A program made the translations under genes and the position numbers. The notes under the pieces were generated by a model. The model was not told the origin of the DNA and searched no databases. It was given only the letters and a program-made list of their open reading frames with translations. Shown here in pieces: positions 7,931 to 21,299 of a DNA stretch of 35,871 nucleotides (the first letter of the stretch is position 1; each line of letters begins with the position of its first letter). The stretch lies in assembly GCF_900167415.1 (NCBI RefSeq), contig NZ_FUWU01000034.1:1-35871 (forward strand), in the 5' to 3' direction. This stretch comes from Fibrobacter intestinalis (GTDB lineage Bacteria > Fibrobacterota > Fibrobacteria > Fibrobacterales > Fibrobacteraceae).

Positions 7931-8638
7931 TTAATTGTAAGTGTATTCATTATCGTCATCTTCATCATAATCATCATCGTATTTTTCGCGCAGGTTTTGC
8001 GCCAAGTAGCTCGTCAATCTGAAACGAATTTCAAAGGATTCCTCATTTCCTTTGATGTTTTTTAGGGAAATAAGAATTTTTAGACGATCGTTTGATAATG
8101 TGGCGTCAAAAGTCGTATTTGAAATGAATGTTGGGCGGTATTCCTGTTCCAATTTGTCAATTTTTAATTCTGGAGAATTGGAAATGAAAGATGTTGCGCA
8201 AAATTCGGTCATGTTTTCCGCATCGAAATATTCCATTTCCTGTTTTCCGTTGTCATACCAGTTATCGGGGACATCTTGAAGGTGCAAAAGCAAATAAGTG
8301 TCTTCAATGGGAAGTACTGTTGCTAAGAAGCAACCTTTGTAGCCTTGCCAAATTTTACCGATCTCGGAGGCATTCTTGCCTTCCGAAGTCAATGTGTATT
8401 CATCGTTTTTTCTCGTAAGCAATCCATTATTTAAAAAGAAAAAAAGGATGTTTTTTATAGCGGCAATACGAGCTTTTCCGTTATCGCCGAATAAATCTCG
8501 ACAAAGCGTTTCCTGACAAACTTTTGGATTTTTCCCAATGTACTGAAGGAACGGAGAAATCCATGGGTTGTCTGTCATGCGGCGGATTTCGCCTTTGACG
8601 ATGATGAATTGGATGTCTTTTTGAATGTCGATTTTCAT
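7931..8638 (-). CDS. Hypothetical protein with winged-helix-like N-terminus and acidic tail
   Basis: This is a 235-residue cytosolic protein. The N-terminal half contains a probable DNA-binding winged helix: helical AAIKNILFFFLNNGLL, then RKNDEYTLTSEGKNASEIG, the pattern of a helix-turn-helix followed by a wing. The C-terminal half looks beta-rich (TFISNTTFDATL, LKILISLKNI, FEIRFRL). The last 15 residues are strongly acidic (DDDYDEDDDNEYTYN), a feature often seen in DNA mimics or in partners that bind basic surfaces. AAGGA lies 8 nt before the ATG. It is 25 nt downstream of the helicase gene in the same operon, so it may be a helicase accessory factor or regulator. I recognise no named family. 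Confidence 0.65.
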   Translation of the reverse strand: MKIDIQKDIQFIIVKGEIRRMTDNPWISPFLQYIGKNPKVCQETLCRDLFGDNGKARIAAIKNILFFFLNNGLLTRKNDEYTLTSEGKNASEIGKIWQGYKGCFLATVLPIEDTYLLLHLQDVPDNWYDNGKQEMEYFDAENMTEFCATSFISNSPELKIDKLEQEYRPTFISNTTFDATLSNDRLKILISLKNIKGNEESFEIRFRLTSYLAQNLREKYDDDYDEDDDNEYTYN

Positions 8639-8663
8639 ATGCTTTTCCTTTGAAATGGATGAA

Positions 8664-11213
8664 TTAAAAAGATTTCCGCACGGCGGCTAGCTTTTGGGCG
8701 ATGCGTCCGAGTGCGCCTTGGGATTTGCTCATTGCTTTCCAATTACCGACATGGATCATCATATACTTAGCGCGTGTTATGGCTACATTTAATCGGTTCG
8801 GTGCTTCTAGAAAGCAGGTCGGATGACTGTTGCTGTAACTTAAAAAAACAATATCTGCTTCGTGCCCTTGGAAGGAATCTACCGATCCGGCTTCATAGTG
8901 GACGTTGTTATTTTTTCCGTCGAAAATTTTTTTGCATTCTTGCTTCAGTTTTTCGGCTTGCTCTTTATAAAAGGAAAGAACGGCTACGGAATACTTCCCG
9001 CCCGATTTTTGGGCGAAGTTTTTAAATGCTCGCAATTCCTTGGAAATCCAATCGATTTCTTTTTGATTGCAGTTTCGAAAATTACATTTCCCTTTAATGT
9101 CGGCAAAAAAGTTGTGCTGCTTTCCGTATCGCGTATAATTCCATTCGCGCTTTCCTCGCATATGTTCGGATTTCATTGCTTTGCTTTCGTAAAATTCTTC
9201 GGAAGCAATTTGCGCAATTTCTGGATGGGAACGATGCTGGTAAGAAAGCGTTGTCATTCTTGATTTCAAAAATTCTTGAGGAATGCCTCGAAAAAGAGCC
9301 GTATCTCGATTTTCACCGAAACCGCGTAGAAAAAGCTCCATACAGGATGGCAAATAAATTTGTCTGAATTTTTCAAGGTTTTGGCTAGAATTTTTATTCT
9401 TGTTTTGGGGAAAAAGATTTTCGATCTCTTTCTTCAGAGAAACACGGATGTCATTATGGATGTTGGTGATATTGTCCCGTTCCTCAAAAAGCCGAATCAT
9501 TCGCCAGCTCATTTCATCGTGCCATTCACGCGGATAGTTTTCACCAAAACGTTTCAAAATTTTTTCGCGGTTGTATCGTGCGAGATGAAACCATTCTTGC
9601 AATTCTTCTTCATGAAGAATTCTTCCGGTTTTTATGTCGCAAGCTGGACGAACTGTTGTAACTCTTGGAGAAATCTGGAAATGAATTGAATGGAATGATT
9701 TGATGGAGCCTAGAATAATGGCTGCATAAGGGAGAATTTCGAAATCTTCCGGATTGTCTGCATCGGCAACAAGAATGTTGTTTTCTTTAGCGTATTTTTT
9801 GTAGAGGAAAGAATCGTAATCGGACTCTTTTTCTACAAGAATGCAAATTTGATTATTACCAAAAGTTTTAGAAACTAAAAGTGTGTCGGAGGCGACGGTA
9901 AATTCTTTTTTTTCTTTAGCGTCTTCTGGATAAAGCATTTGCAGATTATAAGATAAATCGCAATCCTCTACATAAGGCGGCAATTGTTTGATATCCCCGA
10001 TGATAATCCAATGTTTACATAGAATAGCGGGAACAAGAAATTCTTGAATTGTAGTTTTGGAGGCTTCGTCAATAATCAAATAATCGAAGGGCTGCTCTAT
10101 GGAAAATTCGCTTGTGCGAAAAAGTTTTTTGATTTCTGGAATTGCTGCGCCAAAAGTTGTTCCGGCGACAATCGGAGCACTATCTTCCAAAATTTCGTAT
10201 AAAGTTTTATTCTTTTCATAAAGTTTTGGATCAATGATTGAACATAATTTCTCTTGTGCGGGATTTTGCGGATTCTTCAACCGTTCTTTCCAAGACTTAC
10301 TTTCCAGAGAGGCAAAGTTTTTTCCAGAAAGGAAATTTTTCCCGATAAAGCTAATGCGCTCATTATCGGAATCACCGTAACGTTTGGCGGAAAAATTTTG
10401 AAGATTTGGGTAGATTTTTTCTAGAATATTATCAACGGCCACATTGGTGGAAGCTACTAGTAGAATTCTTTTTTGACGGAGTAATAATTGGTAAATGAGT
10501 TCTACGATACTTGTTGTTTTTCCAGATCCTGGAGGCCCGTTCAGAATGGCGATGTCTGGTGTTGAAAGGGCTTTGTTTATAAAGTCTCTTTGTTCTTCCG
10601 TTCCTTTTCGATTTATATCGTTTAAGAAATAATAGTCCTTGTCTTTCAGTATCGTTTTTTCAAATTCCTGAAGAGATATTTTTTCTTGTCCGAAAAGGGA
10701 TTTAAAAAATGGAAAAGCGTCAATAAAGTTTTCTTTTTTGTAATTCTCTATTTGGTGGCGGATATTAGAATCGTAGATCAAATTCTGATTTTGGATTTCT
10801 TCTAGAGCAATCAATTCAAAAATTTGCTGCGTTATGTTTGGTGCTATACAAAGAAGGTTTTTCGGATTAATTTTTTTATCCAAAACCACAACAAAGGATT
10901 TTTCCTTGCTTTTTTTATCCTTTATTTCCCGAAAATTCAGAATTTTTCGAAAATTTTCATCTAAGAGTTTTGTATGCGGAACTTCATTTTCTGGAATCTG
11001 GTAACAGCCTAGACCATTTTTAAAGTTTTTGCGAAATGTTGCAACAATGTCTTCAAAATGAGTGCGTGTTTTTGGGGACGGTAGAAGTTGGTACCGATTT
11101 TCTTTTTCACTGGATTCGATTTGGCGGGCTTCTACAAAGTTAGTCTGGTATCCCGCTAGTTTTAAAGCAATTTCACCTTCAATCATTTTGACGTAATCTT
11201 TTATTTGGCTCAT
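8664..11213 (-). CDS. Upf1-like superfamily 1 helicase
   Basis: This is an 849-residue SF1 (AAA_11/AAA_12, Upf1/Dna2-like) helicase. Ordered motifs: Q-motif region GTEEQRDFINKAL; Walker A GPPGSGKT at about residues 226-233; Ia VASTNVAVDNIL; Walker B LIIDEAS; motif III GDIKQLPPY; SYQHRSHPEI; motif V VDSFQGHEADIVFLS; and motif VI NVAITRAK. The first ~200 residues are unassigned. An insertion of about 200 residues separates motif III from SYQHRSHPEI. There is no visible PLD nuclease (as in Mokosh) or PD-(D/E)XK motif. The start at 11213 is preferred over an upstream codon because GAGGA precedes it and it avoids overlap with the previous gene. It could act on DNA or RNA; a defence role is plausible from context but unproven. 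Confidence 0.9.
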   Translation of the reverse strand: MSQIKDYVKMIEGEIALKLAGYQTNFVEARQIESSEKENRYQLLPSPKTRTHFEDIVATFRKNFKNGLGCYQIPENEVPHTKLLDENFRKILNFREIKDKKSKEKSFVVVLDKKINPKNLLCIAPNITQQIFELIALEEIQNQNLIYDSNIRHQIENYKKENFIDAFPFFKSLFGQEKISLQEFEKTILKDKDYYFLNDINRKGTEEQRDFINKALSTPDIAILNGPPGSGKTTSIVELIYQLLLRQKRILLVASTNVAVDNILEKIYPNLQNFSAKRYGDSDNERISFIGKNFLSGKNFASLESKSWKERLKNPQNPAQEKLCSIIDPKLYEKNKTLYEILEDSAPIVAGTTFGAAIPEIKKLFRTSEFSIEQPFDYLIIDEASKTTIQEFLVPAILCKHWIIIGDIKQLPPYVEDCDLSYNLQMLYPEDAKEKKEFTVASDTLLVSKTFGNNQICILVEKESDYDSFLYKKYAKENNILVADADNPEDFEILPYAAIILGSIKSFHSIHFQISPRVTTVRPACDIKTGRILHEEELQEWFHLARYNREKILKRFGENYPREWHDEMSWRMIRLFEERDNITNIHNDIRVSLKKEIENLFPQNKNKNSSQNLEKFRQIYLPSCMELFLRGFGENRDTALFRGIPQEFLKSRMTTLSYQHRSHPEIAQIASEEFYESKAMKSEHMRGKREWNYTRYGKQHNFFADIKGKCNFRNCNQKEIDWISKELRAFKNFAQKSGGKYSVAVLSFYKEQAEKLKQECKKIFDGKNNNVHYEAGSVDSFQGHEADIVFLSYSNSHPTCFLEAPNRLNVAITRAKYMMIHVGNWKAMSKSQGALGRIAQKLAAVRKSF

Positions 11214-11221
11214 GATTTTCC

Positions 11222-11425
11222 TCAGTATTGGTATTGGTTGCTGGTGAGATGGTAGCCTAGTCCTTCGGGACATTTATAAACGTGCAAAATGGCTTTGCGT
11301 GTTTCCTTGGCGTAATAGGCGTTTTCCATTGCCGTCGTGTAATCGGGATATAGTTTTTTCAATTTGCCGTTTTTTCCGCAGCAGGAGCAGCGACGGATAC
11401 TCAATGAGGTTGAAAAGTTTTTCAT
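11222..11425 (-). CDS. Small zinc-ribbon-like protein
   Basis: This 67-residue protein is the first gene of the helicase operon. It has CSCCGK near the N-terminus and YKCPEGLGYHLTS near the C-terminus, so the Cys residues (with His) could form a small treble-clef or zinc-ribbon site. Similar small proteins with a C-P-x-G-x-G-(Y/W)-H-L-T-S ending are widespread but uncharacterised. AAGGA lies about 7 nt before the ATG. The helicase starts 8 nt after its stop codon, so the two are probably translated together and may cooperate. Confidence 0.75.
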   Translation of the reverse strand: MKNFSTSLSIRRCSCCGKNGKLKKLYPDYTTAMENAYYAKETRKAILHVYKCPEGLGYHLTSNQYQY

Positions 11426-11507
11426 GCGAAATCCTTTTATTTTGTGTGGTACCTGCCAATGCAGATAAGTTTTTTACTTTGAACTAAAAAGAACCACAAT
11501 GTGCTTC

Positions 11508-11537
11508 AGTTTAGCGTAAACGTCTTTTCGTTTACAA
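11508..11537 (-). promoter_or_regulatory. Promoter of the helicase operon with embedded palindrome
   Basis: Read on the minus strand, TTGTAA (11537-11532), an 18-base spacer and TAAACT (11513-11508) form a reasonable promoter. A perfect inverted repeat, GTAAACG-N6-CGTTTAC (11516-11535), fills almost the whole spacer, the classical position of a repressor operator. Transcription would start near 11501, giving a leader of about 75 nt. Confidence 0.5.
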
Positions 11538-11559
11538 AAGAAAAACTAGGATCTTCTTA

Positions 11560-11578
11560 GGGGACAAAAAGGGACAAG
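11560..11578 (-). repeat. TGTCCC direct-repeat site, copy 1
   Basis: Read on the minus strand this is CTTGTCCC, four T, then TGTCCCC: two TGTCCC boxes with a 10-bp period. A near-identical site lies at 17924-17942. It is 22 bp upstream of the proposed -35 of the helicase operon, a position that would suit an activator. Confidence 0.4.
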
Positions 11579-11731
11579 TTTTGAACACCGGAAAAGGGTT
11601 TCGATTTTTCGCAGCGCAAGAGAGAAATTTATGGCGGACAGCTTTAAAAATTCATCTTGAAAAATCACCTGCAACGCATCGCGCTAGCAGTCTATTGACC
11701 AAGAGTCACAACTTCTTCGCCAAAGCAATTT

Positions 11732-12270
11732 TTAGAGGTTGACGTGCGGTAAAATTTTTGTTTCCAGAATAAAACGCTTTAATAAGAACGCACAGAAGTA
11801 GGGGAATGTGTAAAATTTTTTGTTGAAATCGATGTTCCCATTGCAAAGCTTGATGCCGTAATGGATGTCCTTATAGCATTCTTTGGAAATCAAGTTGTTC
11901 AAAGAAGGTGTTGCCTTGTCTCCCGCTTTGACTTCGGCAGGAATTAAGGAATCTGCATCGCTGTACCCGATAATAGATTTTGTATTCGTTGAATCTATTG
12001 TTTCCCTTAGACGGAAGCTTTGGCATTTCCAAATTGTAGTACACATTGATGATTCTGGAGTCTTTTTGCCAATCAATCGTTTTGATATATGCCCTAGTTC
12101 TTGCGCCTACCGCAATCTTGATAATTTGAAAAAGCTTGTTTCCTTTTGCAAAAAAACAGGAATAGATTATAGACGTTCTTGATTTTTCCTTTTCCAGTCC
12201 TAGGTCGTATTTTGTGCTATCTTATTCGTAGCCGATGAGAATTTGTTTTTGCAAAGTTCCTGAGAAGTTA
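11732..12270 (-). pseudogene. Decayed gene remnants, including the 3' end of a DUF4143-type ATPase
   Basis: The frame at 11732-12076 contains SLIPAEVKAGDKATPSLNN, then IKLCNGNI and FYTFPYFCAFLLKRFI. This strongly resembles the C-terminal end of AAA_14/DUF4143 ATPases, where IPVEVKAG, a conserved S-x-x-NI and a final YTFPLY...L are usual. The rest of that protein is missing. Upstream, another frame reads AYIKTIDWQKDSRIINVYYN and PKLPSK but is broken by stops, so a second unrelated remnant seems fused to it. No ribosome binding site is visible. The stretch is best read as gene debris between two accessory operons. Confidence 0.5.
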
Positions 12271-12281
12271 TTTTGTTCCCG

Positions 12282-12758
12282 CTATTTTTCTTTGGAAATT
12301 CCTAATACTTTGTCCAGTTCCTTTGATTTTTCACGCATTAGTTTTTGCAAGTTGGGATGCAAATAATATTCAACCGTCTGTGTCTTGGGATTTTCTGCGC
12401 TTAAGTTTCCGGGTAGTCTTGGATTTTCAAATAAATTGTCTGCAATGGGAAAGTGCTTTTTCAGGTCATCATAGAACTTTTCTATTTTTAAAAAATCGCC
12501 GCGAGTCCCTTTTCCCTTTTGCAAACGTTTCCGAGACGCCTTGTAGGATTCGACGTATTTGTCGCCATAAATTTTCTTGAAGCAGGGGGCGAAGCCGAAT
12601 CGCTTTTGGTAAAAATCCTTAAAAGGGTCGCAGTGTGGTTCTGCGACTTCTTTGGTTACTCGATTATTTTTGTTTTGTTTATTTTTGCGCCGCAAAATTT
12701 CTGTTTTGCAGTGGCCAATATATTCGTCGATTTTTTCTAGAATATCTGGTGCGGACAT
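12282..12758 (-). CDS. Hypothetical basic protein, last gene of the envelope operon
   Basis: This 158-residue, Lys-rich protein has no signal peptide, so it is apparently cytosolic. It contains the aromatic/basic segment DFYQKRFGFAPCFKKIYGDKYVE and ends in a helical tail (LMREKSKELDKVLG). Its ATG lies 3 nt after the stop codon of the preceding gene, implying translational coupling. It is odd to find it at the end of a run of exported proteins; it may be an assembly or regulatory factor. Family unknown. Confidence 0.6.
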   Translation of the reverse strand: MSAPDILEKIDEYIGHCKTEILRRKNKQNKNNRVTKEVAEPHCDPFKDFYQKRFGFAPCFKKIYGDKYVESYKASRKRLQKGKGTRGDFLKIEKFYDDLKKHFPIADNLFENPRLPGNLSAENPKTQTVEYYLHPNLQKLMREKSKELDKVLGISKEK

Positions 12759-12761
12759 GCT

Positions 12762-13076
12762 TTAATCTTTTGCGTCTTCAAGACATTTGTTGTATTCTTT
12801 TTCATCGTTTTTGAGTTTGCCTTTTTCTGCGGCCTTGTTCAGTTTTTTGTCCTTTCCGTCATACTCGCAGGCAAGGCTTGCTACATAGCAGGCGCAGGCG
12901 TTCAATTTGGAAACTTGTTGGGAATAGCTGGAATAATAGGAACTGCTCATGCATTCTTGCATCAGTTTGTATTCCATCTGTCGGCTGAATCTTTTGTCCT
13001 GACAACTTCCCAAAAAAGCGTAACTTATGGAAGAGGCTATGCTTAGAGAAATTAGGATGGTGAGAATTGTTTTCAT
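12762..13076 (-). CDS. Small secreted cysteine-containing protein
   Basis: This 104-residue protein has a clear signal peptide (MKTILTILISLSIASSISYA), so it is periplasmic or exported. The mature part of about 84 residues carries six Cys (GSCQDK, QECMSS, NACACYVASLACEY, NKCLED), suggesting three disulfides in a small helical protein, with a Lys/Glu-rich end. A longer upstream frame exists, but ATG 13076 is chosen because AAGGAG lies 8 nt before it and it opens the signal peptide. It is the fifth gene of the envelope operon, after a 65-bp gap that contains a poly-G/poly-C tract. No family recognised. Confidence 0.75.
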   Translation of the reverse strand: MKTILTILISLSIASSISYAFLGSCQDKRFSRQMEYKLMQECMSSSYYSSYSQQVSKLNACACYVASLACEYDGKDKKLNKAAEKGKLKNDEKEYNKCLEDAKD

Positions 13077-13141
13077 AAGGTATCTCCTTTTTGTATGTGT
13101 GAGGAAAGATTTATTTTGGGGGAAGAAGGCGCCCCCCCCCC

Positions 13142-13915
13142 TCAATACAAATACCAATACCACTCCAATTCGCAATCTTCATTCTTGTAGTCCGATTGAT
13201 ATTGATATGAGTTGTCGCTTAAATTGCCGATATTATAAACGTTGTAACAGTATCCCGAACTATAATCGTCGTTGTCCAAAAGGTCTCTGTCAATGACTTT
13301 GGGACAGACGCTAAGTTTTTCGGTATAGGCGGGGACAATCGCGTCATAGCCGGACAAGCCGCTCCATTCAATAATATCTGATTTGTCCAATAATTTTCCG
13401 GTGGAAATGGTTTTCAGGGTGTCGCCGTAAGTAGATATTGCATGAATGGTAAAGGAGATTACGGGATCACCTTTTGTATTTGTTCCGTCCCAGTCTGTGC
13501 CGGTTTTAAGATATGTTAGGACAAATGTCATATTTTTCGGTTCATCCAGATAGTTTTTACTCTGGTAGCTGGAGCTGGAAGAATAGGAACATTGGTAGCC
13601 GTAATTCGTGCAGCACCAGGAGTCGGAATAGGAGGATGTTCCGAGTCTGCATTTTTCCGATTCGCTCTGGTAGCTGGAGCTGGAAGAATAGGAACATTGA
13701 TAGCCGTAATTTTCACAGCACCAGGAATCCGAATAAGAGGATGTTCCAAGCTTGCATTTGCCTTTTTCTTCGGTATCGTTGCTTGCTTCCCCGGCGAAAT
13801 CCTCGAAATCATCGTTTATAGATGAGAAGGCGTTTTCATCGGAGCAACTGGTGAAAAGAAAAATCACCATAGTTAGTACGAAAGCTTTTGAAAAAATTGT
13901 CTGCCGTTTTTTCAT
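13142..13915 (-). CDS. Lipoprotein with two tandem 35-residue cysteine repeats
   Basis: This 257-residue lipoprotein has the lipobox FTSC with acylated Cys24. After an acidic linker come two nearly identical 35-residue modules (about residues 54-88 and 89-123). Each has C-x11-CC-x6-C: KLGTSSYSDSWCC then NYGYQCSYSSSSSYQS. The serine-rich ends look like Fibrobacter surface linkers. The remaining ~130 residues are beta-rich (MTFVLTYLKTGTDWDG, VISFTIHAIS) with further Cys. Four Cys per module suggest two disulfides. AAAGGA precedes the ATG. It lies 12 nt after the barrel protein in the same operon and is probably part of the same surface complex. Confidence 0.8.
   Translation of the reverse strand: MKKRQTIFSKAFVLTMVIFLFTSCSDENAFSSINDDFEDFAGEASNDTEEKGKCKLGTSSYSDSWCCENYGYQCSYSSSSSYQSESEKCRLGTSSYSDSWCCTNYGYQCSYSSSSSYQSKNYLDEPKNMTFVLTYLKTGTDWDGTNTKGDPVISFTIHAISTYGDTLKTISTGKLLDKSDIIEWSGLSGYDAIVPAYTEKLSVCPKVIDRDLLDNDDYSSGYCYNVYNIGNLSDNSYQYQSDYKNEDCELEWYWYLY
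13560..13769 (-). repeat. Two tandem 105-bp coding repeats
   Basis: The segments 13560-13664 and 13665-13769 are near-identical for most of their 105 bases, exactly 35 codons each, inside the Cys-repeat lipoprotein gene. High nucleotide identity suggests a recent duplication and possible copy-number variation between strains. Confidence 0.85.
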
Positions 13916-13927
13916 ATTCGTTTTCCT

Positions 13928-15349
13928 TTAAAAAGCGAAGTCGAGTTTGAGTCTATAGGTGTCGTCCGAATCGTAAGGTTCCGTGGTGTCTTCGGAGTAA
14001 GTGCTGATGGAGTGCATCAGCCATTGAAACTCAATGGAAACATGTCGAAAAATTTCTGCGCCGATTCCGAAGAATCCCATAAAGTCGAAATCGCCGGATT
14101 CGAACCCGTTTGGTTCCCAGTCGTACGATTTCCTATTATAATCGACTTCGACATAATGTTCGCTGATGAGGCAAAGAGGTTTTCGGATGTTGAAGTTGTA
14201 GCTGAAAAAGGGGCTGAGCCATTGCCAGGTGGGGAATCCGATTCGAAGTTCGAGTGGAATTTCGGCGGTGATGTGATGGGAATTAATCCCGGCACTAAAA
14301 TCTCGATAGTGGCCATAATAGAAGTCGTAATAGTCCACGTTGACGATGTCGTTTTGCTCGTATTGGTAAACGATATTTGCGCCGAATTGAAAGGAACCAT
14401 ATTTGTAAAAATAGAGGCGCATAAAGGCGCCAAGGCCTGCGGTAAGGCCCATACTGGTACTCCAATCGTAACCGCCACGTCCCGTTTCCGAGATAGGGCC
14501 TCCGTAAAGGGAAATGCCCGGATAAAATACGCGCCATGATTTCGATGGAGTTTTTACCGAGTCGTTTGCATTAGAGGGCGTTACTAATTTGAGGCTGTCG
14601 CTAAATCCGCTGGAGTCTTTTTGGAAGGTAATGATGGCTTCATTTTGTGCGGGCGACAGCTCTTCTCTTTTTCGAATCTCTACAATTCGATAGTCGCTTT
14701 TGCGCAGAGTGACCGAAAAATTTTCCGCCGCGTTTTGGGCGTGGTAAGAGTAAATGGAAGCTGCAGAAGCATTTCGATTTTCATGATTGTGCAAAAAGGC
14801 TTGGATTTTTTGAATACTGTCGGCTTCTGCTTGGACGGCGAGTTTTGCCTGCTGTTCGGCAAAGACGTTGCAGCCGCAGATGTTTTCAATGCGTGCGCAA
14901 GTGCTGTCTCCGGATTTTTCCTCTGGGCAAATAGCGCAAAAATTTTGGCATTCGTCGCTTAAAGTCAAAAGCGGTTCGTCGGCTTTTGCGGAAAGGGAAT
15001 CGGTGGAAACACGGAAAGCCTGAAGTTCTTTTTCTGTAAGAGTCGTTTTGGTTTTTTTGATTTTAGAAAGGGAGTCGCCTTCGAATATGAAAAGGAAAGT
15101 GCAGAACTCTTCGTGGCAACCCTTTTCGAAGGCGGTTAAAATTCTAGAAATCGCGAGTTCTTTCTTTAGGGCTTTTGCCGTTTCCATTTGTGATTGCTTG
15201 TTCAGCAAGTCGCTGCAGTGGCAGAGTGAATCCACGCGAGTACAAGTCGGATCGGTAGAATTTGCCGAGCAGGAAGGGCAAAGGGATTTGCACATGTCGT
15301 TGGCAAAAAGCGATGTACAAAGGGCAAAAAATAAGATCATGTATTTCAT
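13928..15349 (-). CDS. Outer-membrane barrel protein with two N-terminal six-Cys modules
   Basis: This is a 473-residue exported protein with a signal peptide ending SLFA. Two modules share the pattern C-x3-C-x2-C-x8/9-C-x6-C-x-C: Cys20/24/27/36/43/45 and Cys134/138/141/151/158/160, each followed by a helical charged stretch. From about residue 270 the protein becomes alternating aromatic/small (GLTAGLGAFMRLYFYKYGSF, GFPTWQWLSPFFSYNF) and ends LKLDFAF with a terminal Phe, typical of an outer-membrane beta-barrel. AAGAGAG precedes the ATG. Gaps to neighbours are 11-12 nt. The Cys-modules plus barrel combination is not one I recognise; it probably anchors or scaffolds the other operon products. 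Confidence 0.8.
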   Translation of the reverse strand: MKYMILFFALCTSLFANDMCKSLCPSCSANSTDPTCTRVDSLCHCSDLLNKQSQMETAKALKKELAISRILTAFEKGCHEEFCTFLFIFEGDSLSKIKKTKTTLTEKELQAFRVSTDSLSAKADEPLLTLSDECQNFCAICPEEKSGDSTCARIENICGCNVFAEQQAKLAVQAEADSIQKIQAFLHNHENRNASAASIYSYHAQNAAENFSVTLRKSDYRIVEIRKREELSPAQNEAIITFQKDSSGFSDSLKLVTPSNANDSVKTPSKSWRVFYPGISLYGGPISETGRGGYDWSTSMGLTAGLGAFMRLYFYKYGSFQFGANIVYQYEQNDIVNVDYYDFYYGHYRDFSAGINSHHITAEIPLELRIGFPTWQWLSPFFSYNFNIRKPLCLISEHYVEVDYNRKSYDWEPNGFESGDFDFMGFFGIGAEIFRHVSIEFQWLMHSISTYSEDTTEPYDSDDTYRLKLDFAF

Positions 15350-15360
15350 AGAACTCTCTT

Positions 15361-15843
15361 TTAGAAAATGCTTCCAATGCTAATGAGAAGTGCTACGGCA
15401 ACAACTCCGCCTACAATCAGCGGAATCCATGAACGCTCTCTTTTCTCGGCTTGTTGATTATCTTGGACGGTTTGATATTCCCCCATTCTCTGAATGCCGA
15501 CGAGTTTATTGTTTTGGACGAGGAATCCGATGGGCTCATTTCGCGTTCCCCAAGCACCCTCTACTTTATCTTTATTGGTGGGCTTGTAAACTTTTCCGTC
15601 TTTAACGGAAGCGAATAAAGTCGGGTGATAATTGTAGATAAAATAAATGGTATCATTTGAATATTCGATGACAACGGGGTCGCCCATTTTGGGATACCAA
15701 TCATTTAGACTCGGATGTTGCAGGGCGTATTGCAAATCGTTGTCGTCGATCCAGTTTTCTTTGAGGGAATAGTGTGTGGTAACAGCGCAGCTTGTTAAAA
15801 GGATCGAACATAAACCGAATAGAATAAATGTCCATTTTTTCAT
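15361..15843 (-). CDS. Lipoprotein with C-terminal transmembrane segment
   Basis: This is a 160-residue protein with lipobox LTSC (Cys19). The middle part is soluble (GDPVVIEYSNDTIYFIYNY, NNKLVGIQRMGEYQTV) and the C-terminus is a hydrophobic helix (about residues 140-160, WIPLIVGGVVAVALLISIGS). Having both a lipid anchor and a C-terminal membrane helix is unusual and could tether it to one membrane at both ends or to two membranes. AAGGAG precedes the ATG. It sits 11 nt from both neighbours in the envelope operon. Family unknown. Confidence 0.75.
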   Translation of the reverse strand: MKKWTFILFGLCSILLTSCAVTTHYSLKENWIDDNDLQYALQHPSLNDWYPKMGDPVVIEYSNDTIYFIYNYHPTLFASVKDGKVYKPTNKDKVEGAWGTRNEPIGFLVQNNKLVGIQRMGEYQTVQDNQQAEKRERSWIPLIVGGVVAVALLISIGSIF

Positions 15844-15854
15844 TGTAATTCTCC

Positions 15855-17177
15855 TTATGGGATATCGTTGGGCATAATTCCGTATTTACGAACTTTTTCG
15901 ATATCGATTAACTCCGATTCGCCGGATTCAAAAGTTCCCGCATCGACTTCTTCGTTGTAGCGTTCGATTGCGGAATTGTTGGCGTATTTGTAAGTACTGG
16001 TTTCATGGTCGATAAGGGTCGTTTCTACAAAATCAAGAGTATTGGAATCTTTTTCCGTGCGCCATCCGACAAAGGCGTGTCCGGGAACAGATACGATGAA
16101 TGTCTGCATTCCCAAAGCTTCTAAAATGGATGCGAAAAGAACGGTTGTTTCAATGCACAAACCGCCTCGTGTACGCAAAACTTCTATGGGATATTTGATT
16201 TTTTGCCCGTTAGAACCTGCGCTTTCATTTTGTATGTAATTGATGCCTCGCGCTTGAAGGACTTCAAAAACAGCTTTTACGATGCGTGAGGAACTTTGGG
16301 CGATGCTTTTGTCGTCAGAATATTTTTGGTAAACTTTTACAGTTCCGTCTGGCAATTTTTTAGAAAGTTCGTCTAGAATATTTTGCAAGGAATCCATGCC
16401 AGGGGTAACCCAGACGCCCCACCACCAGTTTCTATTTTCAACGATGGTGTATTCTGCGCCGTTGATTTGTACCGGATGAATTGTAGTGGGGTCGGAGGAG
16501 GAAAAGAACAGGATTTCTCTGTCGTTTTCGAGAGCGTAGGCGCGGATTTGAAAATGGGTTTGAACAGGAGCGGTGAGGGATAGATATTTTTCCGGCAAAA
16601 AATGAATGGTTGGGGAAAATCGAGTTGAAGAGGAATTGCTTACTGTTTGGGTAACGCTGGTAGTGTCGCTGAATCCATCGACCCATGTTTTCACAACCAC
16701 TTTTTTGGCAGAGCAAGAGGACGAAAGAGCATAGGATGAATAATCTTGCGTAAGAGAAGACACATCTATCCAAGAAGATGAAGAACAATTGTTTTTGATA
16801 TCTACGGAAATGGGATATTCAGAATTTTTGTACATCAGCGGATACTGGTTGGCGAAAGCGGTATAGATATCTTCTTTGATTATATAGACGGATGCGGACA
16901 GGGAATGGATGGTGCTCTGGGTATAAATGTCGTTGTAAATGCTGTCATAAAGTTCCGGGTAAATGGAGTCGTAAGCGGCTGTTTTCAGACTGTCCAAAAA
17001 AGCCTGCTTGGAAGAATCCAAATCGCTGTAAACTTCTGGATAGATGGAGTCGTAGGCGGCAATTTTCAAACTGTCCAAAAGAGAATTCAACTGCTCTTCG
17101 CTCAAGTTTTGATTGGTGATGTTGTCGCTGCAACCCCAAATAAGAAGAGGCATGACTAAAAAAGCCAGTTTTTTCAT
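15855..17177 (-). CDS. Transglutaminase-like lipoprotein, first gene of the envelope operon
   Basis: This 440-residue lipoprotein has lipobox IWGC (Cys16). Near the N-terminus a 15-residue segment, LDSLKxAAYDSIYPE, occurs twice (34-48 and 61-75). A beta-rich middle follows. The C-terminal domain is a transglutaminase-like Cys protease fold: GGLCIETTVLFASIL with Cys341, VPGHAFVGWR with His367, and LDFVETT with Asp382, the usual Cys-His-Asp triad. Such domains act as peptidases, amidases or cross-linkers, here probably in the periplasm or on the surface. The ATG at 17177 is chosen over upstream codons because AAGGA precedes it and it starts the signal peptide. Its promoter lies 268 bp upstream and leaves a long structured leader. 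Confidence 0.85.
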   Translation of the reverse strand: MKKLAFLVMPLLIWGCSDNITNQNLSEEQLNSLLDSLKIAAYDSIYPEVYSDLDSSKQAFLDSLKTAAYDSIYPELYDSIYNDIYTQSTIHSLSASVYIIKEDIYTAFANQYPLMYKNSEYPISVDIKNNCSSSSWIDVSSLTQDYSSYALSSSCSAKKVVVKTWVDGFSDTTSVTQTVSNSSSTRFSPTIHFLPEKYLSLTAPVQTHFQIRAYALENDREILFFSSSDPTTIHPVQINGAEYTIVENRNWWWGVWVTPGMDSLQNILDELSKKLPDGTVKVYQKYSDDKSIAQSSSRIVKAVFEVLQARGINYIQNESAGSNGQKIKYPIEVLRTRGGLCIETTVLFASILEALGMQTFIVSVPGHAFVGWRTEKDSNTLDFVETTLIDHETSTYKYANNSAIERYNEEVDAGTFESGESELIDIEKVRKYGIMPNDIP

Positions 17178-17438
17178 AGAGTTCCTTGGTGCAACACATA
17201 GGTTTTGGAGAACTTTGAACCGGCCTTTTAAAAACAGAAAAGGCGTGGTGTTCGTTCTTCGCTTGCTTGCAAACCGAGGTTCGGCAAAACCTTTACGCAC
17301 AAACAAGCAACAACGACCCACGCCCCGAAAGGGACGTGAGCGTTCGCCATCCTATTCTCTGCGTGGAAATTTTGCCGATTTCGGTTTGAGAATAAGAAGC
17401 AAAAGCTCAAAAACTAATGTCGCGATTTCTCGCTATGT
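17178..17438 (-). other. Long structured 5' leader of the envelope operon
   Basis: From the predicted start near 17438 to the ATG at 17177 there is no gene. On the minus strand the leader can form an outer TTGCTTG/CAAGCAA stem (about 17253-17292) enclosing CCGA-ACC-TCGG, and it has a GC-rich stretch with GGGGCGTGGG. It may be a cis-acting RNA element or only a relic of the intergenic repeat family. I cannot match it to a known riboswitch. Confidence 0.35.
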
Positions 17439-17553
17439 AATTTAAATTTAGCCGTATTAAATAAAAATGTCAATCTTTGGGCAAAAAAAATGTGAAAAAG
17501 CGCAACCTGAGCGATTCATGCGTAAGGGAAATTGCCGATTTCGGTTTTGAATG
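17337..17553 (+). repeat. Pair of imperfect intergenic direct repeats
   Basis: GTGAGCG-TTC ... TGCGT ... GGAAATTTTGCCGATTTCGG (17337-17393) is echoed by CTGAGCG-TTC ... TGCGT ... GGAAATTGCCGATTTCGG (17508-17553). The repeats flank the operon promoter, one inside the leader and one upstream. Confidence 0.5.
17445..17473 (-). promoter_or_regulatory. Promoter of the envelope operon
   Basis: On the minus strand, TTGACA (17473-17468), exactly 17 bases, then TAAATT (17450-17445). This is one of the best promoter matches in the window. It predicts transcription from about 17438 toward the transglutaminase lipoprotein. Confidence 0.65.
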
Positions 17554-17716
17554 GACAGGCTGCGCCATTTGGGGCGTGGGACGAATGCGTTAGCGACCGC
17601 AGCCCGGATGGGTTCGGACTCGCTTATGATTGCATAGGCGAGGCTGAACGGACGCCACACTTTTGGTGCGGCGATAACGCCAGGGAGCGGCCTGCCGTAG
17701 GCAGGAAACGCCCAAG
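17554..17716. other. GC-rich gene-free stretch
   Basis: No gene is supported here. The sequence is GC-richer than its surroundings, with GGGGCGTGGGACG, several short hairpins such as CCTGCC-GTA-GGCAGG (17691-17705), and motifs shared with the leader at 17221-17380. It looks like non-coding repetitive DNA. Confidence 0.4.
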
Positions 17717-17860
17717 TTATTTCTTGTCTCCTTGGTAGAGTGAGTTGTTGGGATTGAGTTGGTTTGCGTGGTTGTCGCGAGCGGCTTTATGCTGCGCGTT
17801 TTCGCCGGAGGTGCCTTTGTTGGCGTTCAGCTGGTTGGCGTGATTGTCGATGGGTTTCAT
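17717..17860 (-). CDS. 47-residue small protein with repeated NHANQLN motif
   Basis: ATG at 17860, preceded by AGGAG at 7-8 nt, encodes 47 residues. The motif DNHANQLN-(A/P)-N occurs twice (residues 5-13 and 29-37), separated by a Gly/Ser/Lys linker, and the end is Lys-rich. No hydrophobic segment is present. DN-x-ANQ-(L/M)-NPN motifs occur in small uncharacterised proteins from many bacteria as far as I recall, but I know no function. It lies 88 nt downstream of the 139-residue gene and has its own possible promoter with a TATAAA box at 17907-17902. Confidence 0.7.
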   Translation of the reverse strand: MKPIDNHANQLNANKGTSGENAQHKAARDNHANQLNPNNSLYQGDKK

Positions 17861-17901
17861 AAAGAATCTCCTATGAATTAGTTGAGGACCTTTTCTCAAC
17901 G

Positions 17902-17942
17902 TTTATAAGGTAGATTCTGTGGTGGGGACATTTGGGGACAAG
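17902..17942 (-). promoter_or_regulatory. TGTCCC direct-repeat site, copy 2, with promoter-like boxes
   Basis: On the minus strand CTTGTCCCC, AAA, TGTCCCC (17942-17924) repeats TGTCCC with a 10-bp period. The proximal box is 17 bases from TATAAA (17907-17902), the normal -35 to -10 spacing, so it may replace a -35 element. It matches the site at 11560-11578. Confidence 0.4.
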
Positions 17943-17948
17943 GGTGAA

Positions 17949-18368
17949 TCAAAAATTTTCGTCGTCCGAATCTTGGATTTCTTGATAGATTTTCTTGGAT
18001 GCTTTTTTCATGGCTTCGCAGATGGGGTCGTTTTCGACCAGATTCAGCAAGGGCTGGGGTGCGATGGGGATGTTTCCTTCGAGGTAGTGCAAAAGTTCTT
18101 GCAACATTCGGTATGGGCAGTCTTGGGATTTTTCCGAAATTCGGGAACGGTATTTTTTAAAATTTGACAACCAGCTTTTTTCGTCTTTGGTTCCTTCTTC
18201 GGCGTCGTGTATTTTTTTGTCAACGCAGTGACCGTGAAAGTCTCGGACGGCGCTGCTGAACTTTTTCCCCTGCTTTTTTAGAAGAACGTCGATTTTTTGC
18301 ACAAGAGGATGTTTTGGCTGTTTTTTTGAAATGGATTTCGTCGGTTTGGTGTCGCTTTTTTTAGTCAT
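17949..18368 (-). CDS. Hypothetical basic/acidic 139-residue protein
   Basis: This cytosolic-looking protein has a Lys-rich N-terminus (KKSDTKPTKSISKKQPK) and an acidic end (IQDSDDENF). The middle contains VRDFHGHCVDKKIHD and WLSNFKKYRSRISEK. Its ATG overlaps the last codons of the upstream coiled-coil gene (8-nt overlap), so translation is coupled and the two products probably work together. I do not recognise a family. Confidence 0.6.
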   Translation of the reverse strand: MTKKSDTKPTKSISKKQPKHPLVQKIDVLLKKQGKKFSSAVRDFHGHCVDKKIHDAEEGTKDEKSWLSNFKKYRSRISEKSQDCPYRMLQELLHYLEGNIPIAPQPLLNLVENDPICEAMKKASKKIYQEIQDSDDENF

Positions 18369-19059
18369 TGCAAGAGATTCGGATGTTTGTCAAATCGTTG
18401 TTGGGATATTGCTTTTGCAGTTTTTTGAGGTGCTTGATGCAGCACTTGACCTGCCCGTTGAATTTGTAGGAGTACATGGTTTCGCCGTGAGCGTTGACGC
18501 AGTTGTGGATTGCCTGAAATTCGTTTTCGATGGGGGCGCGGTCTTTGTATTCGTCGTTCAGGTCTTGGATTGCTTTGACATAATTTTTATTTAGAGTTTC
18601 TAGGCTGTCGATTTGATTGTCCCGGATGCGAACTTCGTTTTCTTCATTTTGATAGTCGGTTAAAATTTGGTTGTATTTTTGGACAAAATCCTGCCGCTCC
18701 TCGTCTATTTTTTGAACTTCTTGTTTTTGTTCTTCATAGGCTTTGACGTAAGGTTCAAGTCGATAGATGTAACGCTCCAGGGAATCGATTTGAAGATTTT
18801 TCTGATGGAGGGTTGTTTGGTAGTTCTTTTTGATTTCCAACCATTCTTCTTGTTTTTGAGCTGCCTCTTGCAACAACTGCTCTGCCATTTCGTAGGGTCT
18901 TTCCGTTAGATTCAGCTTGTCGTTTTCATCGATTTTGTCGCCGCAAATGTATCCACCCATGGCGCAAATCACGCCGGTTGTCGCCAAAAGTTTAGCTTTC
19001 CCGCTGAATTTGAACTCTTCCGGTTCGGGCTTGTTGGGCTCGGGATTTTCTTCTGCCAT
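18361..19059 (-). CDS. Membrane-anchored coiled-coil protein
   Basis: This 232-residue protein has a short Pro/Glu-rich N-terminus and one transmembrane segment at about residues 22-42 (AKLLATTGVICAMGGYICG). A long coiled coil follows to about residue 170 (YEEQKQEVQKIDEERQDFVQ, IRDNQIDSLETLNKN). The C-terminal region has four Cys (IHNCVNAHGE, VKCCIKHL, ISCND) that may bind metal or form disulfides. The ATG at 19059 is preferred to an upstream one because CGAGGT lies 5-6 nt before it. The topology could be a periplasmic or cytoplasmic coiled coil; I cannot decide. No family recognised. Confidence 0.7.
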   Translation of the reverse strand: MAEENPEPNKPEPEEFKFSGKAKLLATTGVICAMGGYICGDKIDENDKLNLTERPYEMAEQLLQEAAQKQEEWLEIKKNYQTTLHQKNLQIDSLERYIYRLEPYVKAYEEQKQEVQKIDEERQDFVQKYNQILTDYQNEENEVRIRDNQIDSLETLNKNYVKAIQDLNDEYKDRAPIENEFQAIHNCVNAHGETMYSYKFNGQVKCCIKHLKKLQKQYPNNDLTNIRISCND

Positions 19060-19249
19060 TGTTACCTCGATAATTTCCAAAAATTTAATAATAATCGTTT
19101 GTCCACGATAAAATTCGGGGCGGGCTGGTTGTGAAAAAACAGAGGCCTTTCAAATCGCCGTAGGGGAGATGTCTATTTTCTTGCGAACTACGTCTTTGTG
19201 CTTTATTTGATTTTGTAGAGAGCTAGTTGTCAGTTGTTAGTCTGCTTCG

Positions 19250-19405
19250 AATGGTTCAGCAGCCGTCTGGCGTTTATCAATAAACTCAGGGAGCGTGGGT
19301 TGGTGCCCTTCGACTAGTTCGGCAGGCTCACTAACCAAGGCTCAGGGACCGTAGGTTGGTGGACTCGTCGAACCACGCTTGCTGAGCTTGTCGAAGCATT
19401 ACCAA
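19250..19405. repeat. REP-like intergenic repeat cluster, copy B
   Basis: GGTTGGTGCCCTTCG (19298-19312) is the reverse complement of the end of the 35730-35759 repeat. Further on, GGCTCAGGGACCG and GCTGAGCTTGTCGAAGCA repeat the core again in alternating orientation. This is a mosaic of the element at both window ends. Confidence 0.6.
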
Positions 19406-19496
19406 AGCGATTTTTAGATTTCGCAAAATGAATCGCTAAATGGAAAAAATTTTATCTTGGAAAATAAAGTCGGGCACTGTTGCGTTATTTGATGAA

Positions 19497-19639
19497 AAAT
19501 GGAAAAGCGCACGGGATATTCCCGTGCGCCCTGCTTCCCCTCCCCCGAGAATCTCGGGAAAGCTCATGAAAAATTCATTTTTAGGCCTTGTTCCTTTTCC
19601 TTTTATAATATAACATCGCTTTTTGTCAGCTTTTGTCAA
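19497..19639 (-). ncRNA. Candidate small RNA of about 100 nt
   Basis: On the minus strand, CTGACA (19629-19624) and TATAAA (19607-19602) are spaced by 16 bases, with TTGACA just upstream (19639-19634). Starting near 19595 the transcript would contain a CCCGAGA/TCTCGGG hairpin. It would end at a strong terminator: GCGCACGGGA pairs with TCCCGTGCGC (19507-19529), followed by TTTTCCATTTTT. There is no meaningful ORF inside. The promoter, two hairpins and a U-tract fit a small RNA; expression is unproven. Confidence 0.45.
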
Positions 19640-19681
19640 AAACAACATTTTGCGAAATTTTTGCTTGGAGAACTCGATTTG

Positions 19682-19697
19682 TTGTAAAACTTTACAA
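19682..19697. promoter_or_regulatory. Palindrome upstream of the xylanase gene
   Basis: TTGTAAA-AC-TTTACAA is a perfect 7-2-7 inverted repeat about 88 bp before the xylanase start codon. It could be a regulator binding site controlling xylanase expression, or the divergent small RNA. Confidence 0.4.
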
Positions 19698-19784
19698 TAA
19701 AAAAAAGGAAACAAAGCTTGGTATATGGACAGGAATAGGTAAGTTTGAAGTCAATCGCATTGAGTTCGGCGATAAAGGAGATGT

Positions 19785-21299
19785 ATGCTCAACCCATTTG
19801 GTAAGATAGCGCAGCGCGTTTTTTTGTTCGCTTGGGGCTTTTGCTTTTCGGGCGCATTTGCGATAGACGCTTGCAAAGATGAAATGGGGCATGTCGGGAG
19901 TGCCCATATGGTTTCGGGAAATCAAACGGGTTCCATCAGCGGAACGGCCTGGGGATTTGAACAGTGGTATCAGGGCGGCAACAACTCCATGACCTATTAC
20001 GACAACGGGACTTTTAAGGCAAATTGGAGCGGAAGCAGCGATTATTTGGCGCGCGTCGGTTTTCGTTATGGAGATAATGGCCCGGGTGTGGATCATACGA
20101 CAAAGCAATATACGGTAGATTATCGTTACACGAAAAGCGGTTCTGCATCTTATGGCTATATAGGCGTTTATGGGTGGACAGTCAATCCGCAGGTGGAGTA
20201 TTATATTGTGGACGATTGGTATAGCAAACCGAGTGAAAATTATGTTGGAGAAAAGTTTGGGGAAATCACGGTGGATGGAGCTACTTACACGATCCACGCC
20301 TATTTGCGCCAGCAGGAACCTTCCAAATCGGGCACTTCCACTTTCGTGCAGATTTTCAGCATTCGGAAAACACCGCGGCAATGCGGGCATATCGACATTT
20401 CTGCGCATTTTAAAAAATGGGACGAGCTTTTTACCGGGCAGACGGCACAGCTGAAGGGTTCAAAGGGCGGCGGCTCGGCGACATTGAAATTTGGCAAGGT
20501 GACCGAGGTAATGCTCATGAACGAAGCGGGGGGCAATGCTTCGGGAACGGTGGACTACACCTATTTCAACATGACGGATAATGGGACGGGTTCGGTTGTG
20601 ATTCCGGAGGATTCGACTGCGGAAATTGAACGGCGTCCATTTAACGGAGTCAAAGCCAAAATTCCGGGAACTATAGAAGCGGAAAATTTTGACGAAGGCA
20701 ATAACGGCGTTTCATATAGCGATAACAGCGAAACTCTTGAAGAAGGCGTGATGACGGAGTACCGCGGCGAAGATTATTTTGCCGATGTGGTGGGAACGGG
20801 AAGCGGGTATGCGATTGGCTATACGGCTCAAGGGGAATGGTTGGAATACACAGTGGATGTGGAAGCCGATGCGGAATATACGGTAGAAGCCCTGGTTTCA
20901 AACGGTTCTGGGGACGGATCGATTTCTTTGTCCATCGGGGAGGCGACGGGAAAGATTGACTTTTCGGCAACGGAGGATTGGAATACCTACCAAACGGCTT
21001 CGACGAAGATGTATTTGAAAAAAGGCGAACACATTTTGCGTGTCACTTTTGATACGGACAATACCAATTTGGATAATTTGACATTCACTGCGGATGGCCA
21101 AACCGGAATGGCTGCTCCGTTGAAATGGAAACCGGTTTCGGGAACATTCTTCGTTTTCGATATGCAGGGACGACTCTTGGGGAAAGTTTGGGGTATGGAG
21201 GGCTCTTCTTTGGATAATGCTTTGCGCTCTCGCTTCCAAAATATGGGAACATATCTTGTGAAGCAGGGAAATTGGGTAAAGATTATCCGAGTAGAATAG
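19785..21299 (+). CDS. Secreted GH11 endo-1,4-beta-xylanase with CBM6 and C-terminal sorting-like domain
   Basis: This 504-residue extracellular xylanase hydrolyses internal beta-1,4 links in xylan. The signal peptide ends near AFA-ID. The GH11 jelly roll spans about residues 30-265, with the nucleophile in PQVEYYIVDDW (Glu138) and the likely acid/base in LMNEAGG (Glu247). A CBM6 follows at about 291-437 (TIEAENFDEG, QGEWLEYTVDV, HILRVTFDT, NLDNLTF). The last ~50 residues (FVFDMQGRLLG, NMGTYLVKQG, VKIIRVE) resemble the C-terminal domains used by the type IX secretion system. AAGGAG lies 5-6 nt before the ATG. The gene is monocistronic with terminators behind it. GH11 plus CBM6 is typical of fibre-degrading Fibrobacter. 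Confidence 0.95.
   Translation: MLNPFGKIAQRVFLFAWGFCFSGAFAIDACKDEMGHVGSAHMVSGNQTGSISGTAWGFEQWYQGGNNSMTYYDNGTFKANWSGSSDYLARVGFRYGDNGPGVDHTTKQYTVDYRYTKSGSASYGYIGVYGWTVNPQVEYYIVDDWYSKPSENYVGEKFGEITVDGATYTIHAYLRQQEPSKSGTSTFVQIFSIRKTPRQCGHIDISAHFKKWDELFTGQTAQLKGSKGGGSATLKFGKVTEVMLMNEAGGNASGTVDYTYFNMTDNGTGSVVIPEDSTAEIERRPFNGVKAKIPGTIEAENFDEGNNGVSYSDNSETLEEGVMTEYRGEDYFADVVGTGSGYAIGYTAQGEWLEYTVDVEADAEYTVEALVSNGSGDGSISLSIGEATGKIDFSATEDWNTYQTASTKMYLKKGEHILRVTFDTDNTNLDNLTFTADGQTGMAAPLKWKPVSGTFFVFDMQGRLLGKVWGMEGSSLDNALRSRFQNMGTYLVKQGNWVKIIRVE

Follow-up and report, generated by a model that had tools for sequence, protein, structure and literature searches.

Six closely spaced genes at positions 12282–17177 of a 35,871-nucleotide stretch of the Fibrobacter intestinalis genome (contig NZ_FUWU01000034.1, positions 1 to 35,871; hereafter the window) raise the question of whether they encode one envelope system or a chance assembly of several. 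The six open reading frames (ORFs), designated A to F, all lie on the minus strand, run from 17177 to 12282 and are separated by gaps of 11, 11, 12, 65, and 3 nt; a purine run resembling a Shine-Dalgarno sequence precedes A, B, C, D, and E. A lipobox is present in A, B, and D, a signal peptide in C and E, and neither in F. The description given in the original prediction, of six genes spaced by 3–65 nt and coding for five exported proteins and one cytosolic protein, is confirmed by these ORFs, lipoboxes and signal peptides. The sequence likewise contains the extracytoplasmic cysteines predicted for four of the five exported products (A, C, D, and E) and the duplicated cysteine modules predicted for two of them (C and D). 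Comparative analysis indicates, however, that the proposed unity of the row does not hold: it is very probably a composite of an envelope cassette, A-B-C-D, and an unrelated unit, E-F.

Comparative genomics covered 111 genomes of the window's own family, and phylum-wide searches 168 genomes; the retrieved loci comprised 52 centered on A and 60 centered on C or B, and their neighboring genes were sorted by profiles. E was found in 10 and F in four family genomes. The E-F pair recurs without A-D once in genome G104 and twice in genome G109; several Fibrobacter genomes also have a gene for an F-like protein after E. A-D lies near none of the other E/F copies and accompanies E-F in no other retrieved locus. 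The 65-nt gap between D and E holds a G10 tract and a stem-loop and looks like a module boundary. Within the cassette, A mostly occurs alone and B is partnered elsewhere with another small protein, m, so that the six genes are not a conserved neighborhood. The proximity of all six genes on one strand and the extracytoplasmic cysteines of four of their products would suit one apparatus at the surface, held together by disulfides, with A cutting or cross-linking its partners. This is very improbable given the independent recurrence of E-F, the split between D and E, and the cysteine modules of C, which are predicted to be periplasmic rather than exposed on the surface and are dispensable, being absent from 23 of 60 C genes.

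The C-D pair, the six-cysteine module and the predicted C2-like head of D

The core of the cassette is formed by C (13928–15349) and D (13142–13915). D is the next gene, in the same orientation, after 51 of 60 distinct C genes, and in 47 of these cases the gap measures 8–16 nt. A second C-D copy, without A, is present elsewhere in the window's own genome. Genome G151, from another family, encodes a two-module C of 514 amino acids followed by D after 9 nt, and this occurrence suggests that the pair is older than the family. Comparison shows C and D to be an old, nearly obligate gene pair. Matches to C were obtained in 53 family genomes, in two of them only via the cysteine module of m, and the D-type C2-like domain was found in 59 of the 168 phylum genomes (57 in the family and two outside it).

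C is predicted to comprise a signal peptide, two six-cysteine modules (15185–15304, profile E-value 2.2e-15, and 14843–14959, E-value 1.1e-12), a linker and an outer-membrane beta-barrel ending in Phe. The match to the Pfam family OMP_b-brl (18.3 bits) is below the cut-off of 28.7 bits; the presence of a terminal aromatic residue (Phe/Trp) and of an alternating pattern supports the barrel assignment. Outer-membrane barrels hold their N terminus in the periplasm and, since the modules precede the barrel, they are predicted to be periplasmic. No convincing sequence relatives of C or of the cysteine module were found in the PDB. C resembles the OmpA/OmpW-type barrels (OMP_b-brl, PF13505/PF13568) in its small barrel domain and aromatic C terminus, but differs from them in matching only under the curated cut-off, in its long periplasmic arm with six-cysteine modules and in its co-encoded lipoprotein D. 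Genetic pairing of an outer-membrane barrel with a lipoprotein is also typical of SusC/SusD-type pairs; C, however, is only about 280–650 amino acids long and has no TonB plug match, and D has no SusD match.

In the C protein of the window, the module reads C-x3-C-x2-C-x8/9-C-x6-C-x-C. Across the family the third spacing varies from about 6 to 22 residues (C-x3-C-x2-C-x(about 6 to 22)-C-x6-C-x-C), while the six cysteines are invariant in the alignment; they may form either disulfides or a metal site. Two modules were found in 15 of the 60 C genes, one in 22 and none in 23. As the C-D pair includes C proteins with two, one or no modules, the modules are optional, whereas the pairing is not. Module matches were listed in 41 of the 168 phylum genomes, and by coordinates all of them fall within C or m genes.

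The small protein m consists of a signal peptide, one six-cysteine module and a C-terminal membrane helix. It is encoded after B in at least eight genomes, and gene calling revealed a contiguous B-m-C-D arrangement in four loci. B (15361–15843), found in 30 of the 111 family genomes, is a small lipoprotein with a C-terminal membrane helix. Among the matches listed, the six-cysteine module is confined to C and to m, which pairs with B, and it ties B and m to the C-D pair. In the window m is absent and B is located directly ahead of C.

D is a lipoprotein (lipobox C24, followed by SDEN) with two 4-Cys/Ser-rich repeats and a C-terminal C2-like domain at residues 121–257 (13145–13555). In the AlphaFold model of D (46 homologues) the predicted local distance difference test score (pLDDT) is about 97 over most of this head, whose predicted structure fits the eight-stranded C2 beta-sandwich topology. 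With the head as query, Foldseek returned 47 PDB hits at E ≤ 1e-3; C2 domains account for nearly all of these, and likewise for nearly all of the best 50. The C2 domain of cytosolic phospholipase A2 (cPLA2) was matched with E-values of 1.3e-6 to 3.2e-6, the top match having an E-value of 1.3e-6 and a TM score of 0.68 over the isolated cPLA2 C2 domain. Loops 1–3 carry conserved acidic residues; among 46 sequences the residue is acidic in 74% at D143, 96% at D150, 74% at D180, 93% at D209, 72% at D211, and 80% at D216. Ca2+-binding C2 domains carry their ligands at such loop positions. The likeness to C2 domains of type II topology (cPLA2, PLC-delta/zeta) comprises the predicted fold and the acidic loops between strands 1–2, 3–4, and 5–6; D differs in lacking a Pfam C2 match, in an extra conserved cysteine pair (C204/C223) and in being carried on a bacterial lipoprotein.

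At the sequence level this relationship is faint. Pfam C2 (PF00168) exceeded its cut-off in none of the 111 family genomes and did not match D, and comparison of D by hhalign and hmmsearch with three C2 sequences gave only background. In the PDB, a weak match by sequence to the C2 domain of PLC-zeta (E-value 0.007) is no more than suggestive, since designed trefoils outscore it on the same short motif. The head of D is C2-like by predicted fold and not a member of the Pfam C2 family, and it may bind Ca2+. Alternatively, it could be a C2-like beta-sandwich with no Ca2+ function, C and D then being a structural or adhesive pair in which, e.g., the barrel might export or cap its lipoprotein. Many eukaryotic C2 domains bind no Ca2+, and this alternative would agree with the lack of C2 detection in sequence searches, with Asn at position 211 in 10 of 46 sequences and with a non-acidic residue at position 216 in about 20%. 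It is nevertheless unlikely, as the acidic residues cluster on the three loops that build the Ca2+ site of C2 domains and are among the best-conserved polar positions. The literature searched contained nothing relevant on bacterial C2 domains.

Lipoprotein A and its genomic neighbors

A (15855–17177) has relatives in 54 of the 111 family genomes. It is a lipoprotein (lipobox C16) in which a coiled repeat region and a beta-sandwich precede a C-terminal transglutaminase-fold domain containing Cys341, His367, and Glu385. The AlphaFold model has pLDDT values above 90 across the beta-sandwich and the transglutaminase domain, and Foldseek retrieved transglutaminases, PNGase and LapG. Pfam transglutaminase-like models match 20–27 of 38 A members at E < 0.01. 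Cys341 and His367 are present in all 49 homologues, Glu385 in at least 90% and C131/C155 in 42 of the 49. The fold and the catalytic Cys-His-(Asp/Glu) residues place A in the transglutaminase-like superfamily, and the invariant Cys341 and His367 together with the near-invariant Glu385 indicate that it is probably an active thiol enzyme. No relevant publications on Fibrobacter transglutaminases were found in the literature searched. Within the gene, a 55-nt direct repeat with a spacing of 81 nt (16948–17083) encodes the coiled repeat LDSLK-AAYDSIYPE. An apparent fusion of A to a 2161-amino-acid protein in another genome was rejected as a product of a masked or unsequenced run of N.

The closest named sequence relative of the transglutaminase domain of A is the N-terminal region of antiphage_ProA (NCBIfam NF058533; E-value 3.4e-19), which shows the same Cys/His/Glu pattern. 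The likeness is limited to this domain: the match of 67.9 bits extends only over profile positions 119–311 and is far below the family cut-off of 1500 bits. ProA is a protein of about 1900 amino acids without a signal peptide and with DUF4011, helicase and restriction endonuclease domains, while A is exported and has none of these. Full-length relatives of ProA, scoring over the NCBIfam cut-off, are encoded in two of the genomes (G068 and G040).

With the periplasmic cysteine proteases of the LapG/BTLCP type, A shares the transglutaminase fold and the invariant Cys and His (Foldseek 4u65_E, probability 1.00; 4fgq, probability 0.97). The catalytic triad of LapG is C-H-D, with Asp as the acidic residue (PMC4359373). 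Unlike LapG, A is lipid-anchored, carries a beta-sandwich in front of the catalytic domain and has Glu as the acidic residue. A has no Pfam match to BTLCP and does not belong to the LapG sequence family, and neither LapD-like nor giant adhesin genes were recognized beside A in the retrieved A loci.

The relationship of A to the C-D pair is less strict than that between C and D. Of 48 distinct cases, 38 have A without C/D nearby and 10 have it next to them; a simple chance model (3000 genes, 1.3 D copies, and a distance of ±3 genes) predicts 0.12 linked cases. The ten linked cases correspond to seven changes on the A tree, six of which are forced by well-supported branches. Their gene orders vary (A-B-C-D, C-D-A, A-D, A-C-D), while the linked genes share one strand and mostly lie 9–70 nt apart. 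Across genomes of the main genus, the presence of A shows no significant association with that of C (29/13/18/20, p = 0.07). The neighbors of A also include unrelated lipoproteins (f44, f62, and f72), for which reason the A locus may be an insertion hotspot. In loci L049–L057, which represent one trp-linked site of closely related Fibrobacter genomes, the neighbors of A swap among D, C-D, and the f62, f44, and f72 lipoproteins; this is a variable surface-gene site.

Such a hotspot would mean that C-D (and B-m) is the functional unit, and that A is an independent housekeeping lipoprotein at an insertion-tolerant site for variable surface-lipoprotein genes, with no action on C or D. The many A genes without C/D, the weak association of A with C and the trp-linked site, where A is accompanied in close relatives by D alone, by C-D and f62, by f44, or by f72-C-D, are in line with this explanation. 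It is somewhat unlikely, since linkage far above expectation, on one strand, at short distances, in several orders and with at least six changes on the tree is difficult to reconcile with it; a common strand and operon-like spacing are seldom kept at insertion hotspots. The comparison favors a functional link of A to C/D that is real, if loose, with a permissive insertion site as the main alternative.

The E-F unit and the flanking regions

E (12762–13076) is a small exported cysteine-rich protein and F (12282–12758) a cytosolic one; the two genes pair in helicase-linked islands. Near many E/F copies are relatives of the superfamily 1 (SF1) helicase of the window (8664–11273), genes similar to U2-U1, or AAA ATPases. 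U2, a membrane-anchored coiled-coil protein, and U1 (17949–18368) are encoded by two genes overlapping by 8 nt at 17949–19080. F is homologous to U1 (hhalign 96%; hmmsearch E-value 3e-9 in a tiny database), which places related two-gene units on both sides of the A-D block. By eye, the C-terminal end of U2 seemed homologous to E, but hhalign (4%) does not support this. The ten-G run at 13130–13141, directly after the stop codon of D, forms one arm of the stem-loop; G tracts are prone to slippage, and this run could differ between cells.

The region 7931–11273, comprising the UPF1-like SF1 helicase and an adjoining 235-amino-acid protein, is a candidate mobile or defence island, as the helicase matches the PADLOC MkoA model (9.4e-78). 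Both of its genes recur near E in five other loci. Apparently intact AAA ATPases adjoin E in three loci. A short ORF at 11732–12076 resembles, by eye, the C-terminal end of an AAA/DUF4143 ATPase; its assignment as a DUF4143 remnant was rejected because it has no Pfam match.

Upstream of the row, the single strong promoter of the original prediction is only partly borne out. The promoter-like site TTGACA-17-TAAATT is indeed present at 17445–17473 on the minus strand, 268 nt upstream of A; it is a consensus match only, a hairpin lies between it and A, and promoter-like sites around the locus (13) are not in excess over shuffled DNA (11.8 ± 3.0). The long untranslated stretch 17178–17750 contains repeated TTGCCGATTTCGGTTT and inverted repeats. 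A fragment akin to it, there translated, is located upstream of D in another locus, so it is perhaps a dispersed Fibrobacter repeat. No Rfam elements were found in 11200–19800. Farther away, 19785–21299 encodes an exported glycoside hydrolase family 11 xylanase with a family 6 carbohydrate-binding module.

A possible envelope assembly and its significance

The share of proteins with acidic residues at positions +2 to +6 after the lipid-bearing cysteine is 81% for D, 79% for A, 49% for the remaining predicted lipoproteins and 0% for B. The surface-lipoprotein signal (LES) of Bacteroidetes consists of polar and then acidic residues just after this cysteine (PMC5080379). The acidic residues of D and A resemble LES, a signal that was defined in Bacteroidetes in a paper that makes no mention of Fibrobacter (PMC5080379).

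In the resulting model, C would be an outer-membrane barrel serving as a scaffold between periplasm and surface, with its cysteine-module arm in the periplasm. C-terminal helices would hold B in the inner membrane, and likewise m wherever it occurs, and the like modules of m and C could dock across the periplasm. D would be an outer-membrane lipoprotein, probably displayed on the surface, and the acidic loops of its C2-like head may bind Ca2+ and thereby an anionic surface such as lipopolysaccharide, vesicles or the acidic polysaccharides of the plant wall. A, at the surface or in the periplasm, may be a cysteine hydrolase by which adjoining lipoproteins are trimmed, released or ligated, much as LapG-type proteases release adhesins. 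The chain as a whole, from the C scaffold and surface display of D to its Ca2+-dependent binding and the action of A on its neighbors, is tentative, with slightly less than an even chance of being correct. Evidence pulling in the other direction includes the failure of sequence searches to recognize C2 in D, the absence of cysteine modules from many C proteins (23 of 60) and of m from the window, and the non-significant association of A with C together with its unrelated lipoprotein neighbors. A more ambitious version appears improbable, namely a Fibrobacterota-specific, trans-envelope, Ca2+-responsive surface machine in which like six-cysteine modules clasp B/m to C, a C2 lipoprotein presented by them binds anionic surfaces when Ca2+ is present, and A releases or fastens it. 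Such a machine would put a C2 head, a fold known mainly from eukaryotic membrane signaling, to use at a bacterial surface.

The claim that this combination is undescribed holds for the envelope set, which is unknown to Pfam and NCBIfam, has recurring cysteine modules and is repeatedly joined by A, and not for a unit of six genes. The arm of C, m, B, D, E, and F have no Pfam or NCBIfam family above cut-off, and no paper on any of them was found in the literature searched. Pairs of a barrel and a lipoprotein are a known kind, as are proteases with the transglutaminase fold; joined as here to a C2-like head and a cysteine module in common, they make up a new variation. The locus also illustrates that a plausible-looking operon can turn out to be a mosaic.

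Fibrobacter breaks down cellulose through contact with its cell surface. Published models of this surface include OmpA, tetratricopeptide repeat (TPR) and fibro-slime proteins (PMC6851124). If its Ca2+ site is real, D would contain a rare exported bacterial C2 domain. The conserved pair of a barrel and a C2-like lipoprotein, together with a cysteine module common to inner- and outer-membrane proteins, points to an unannotated part of this surface with testable predictions.

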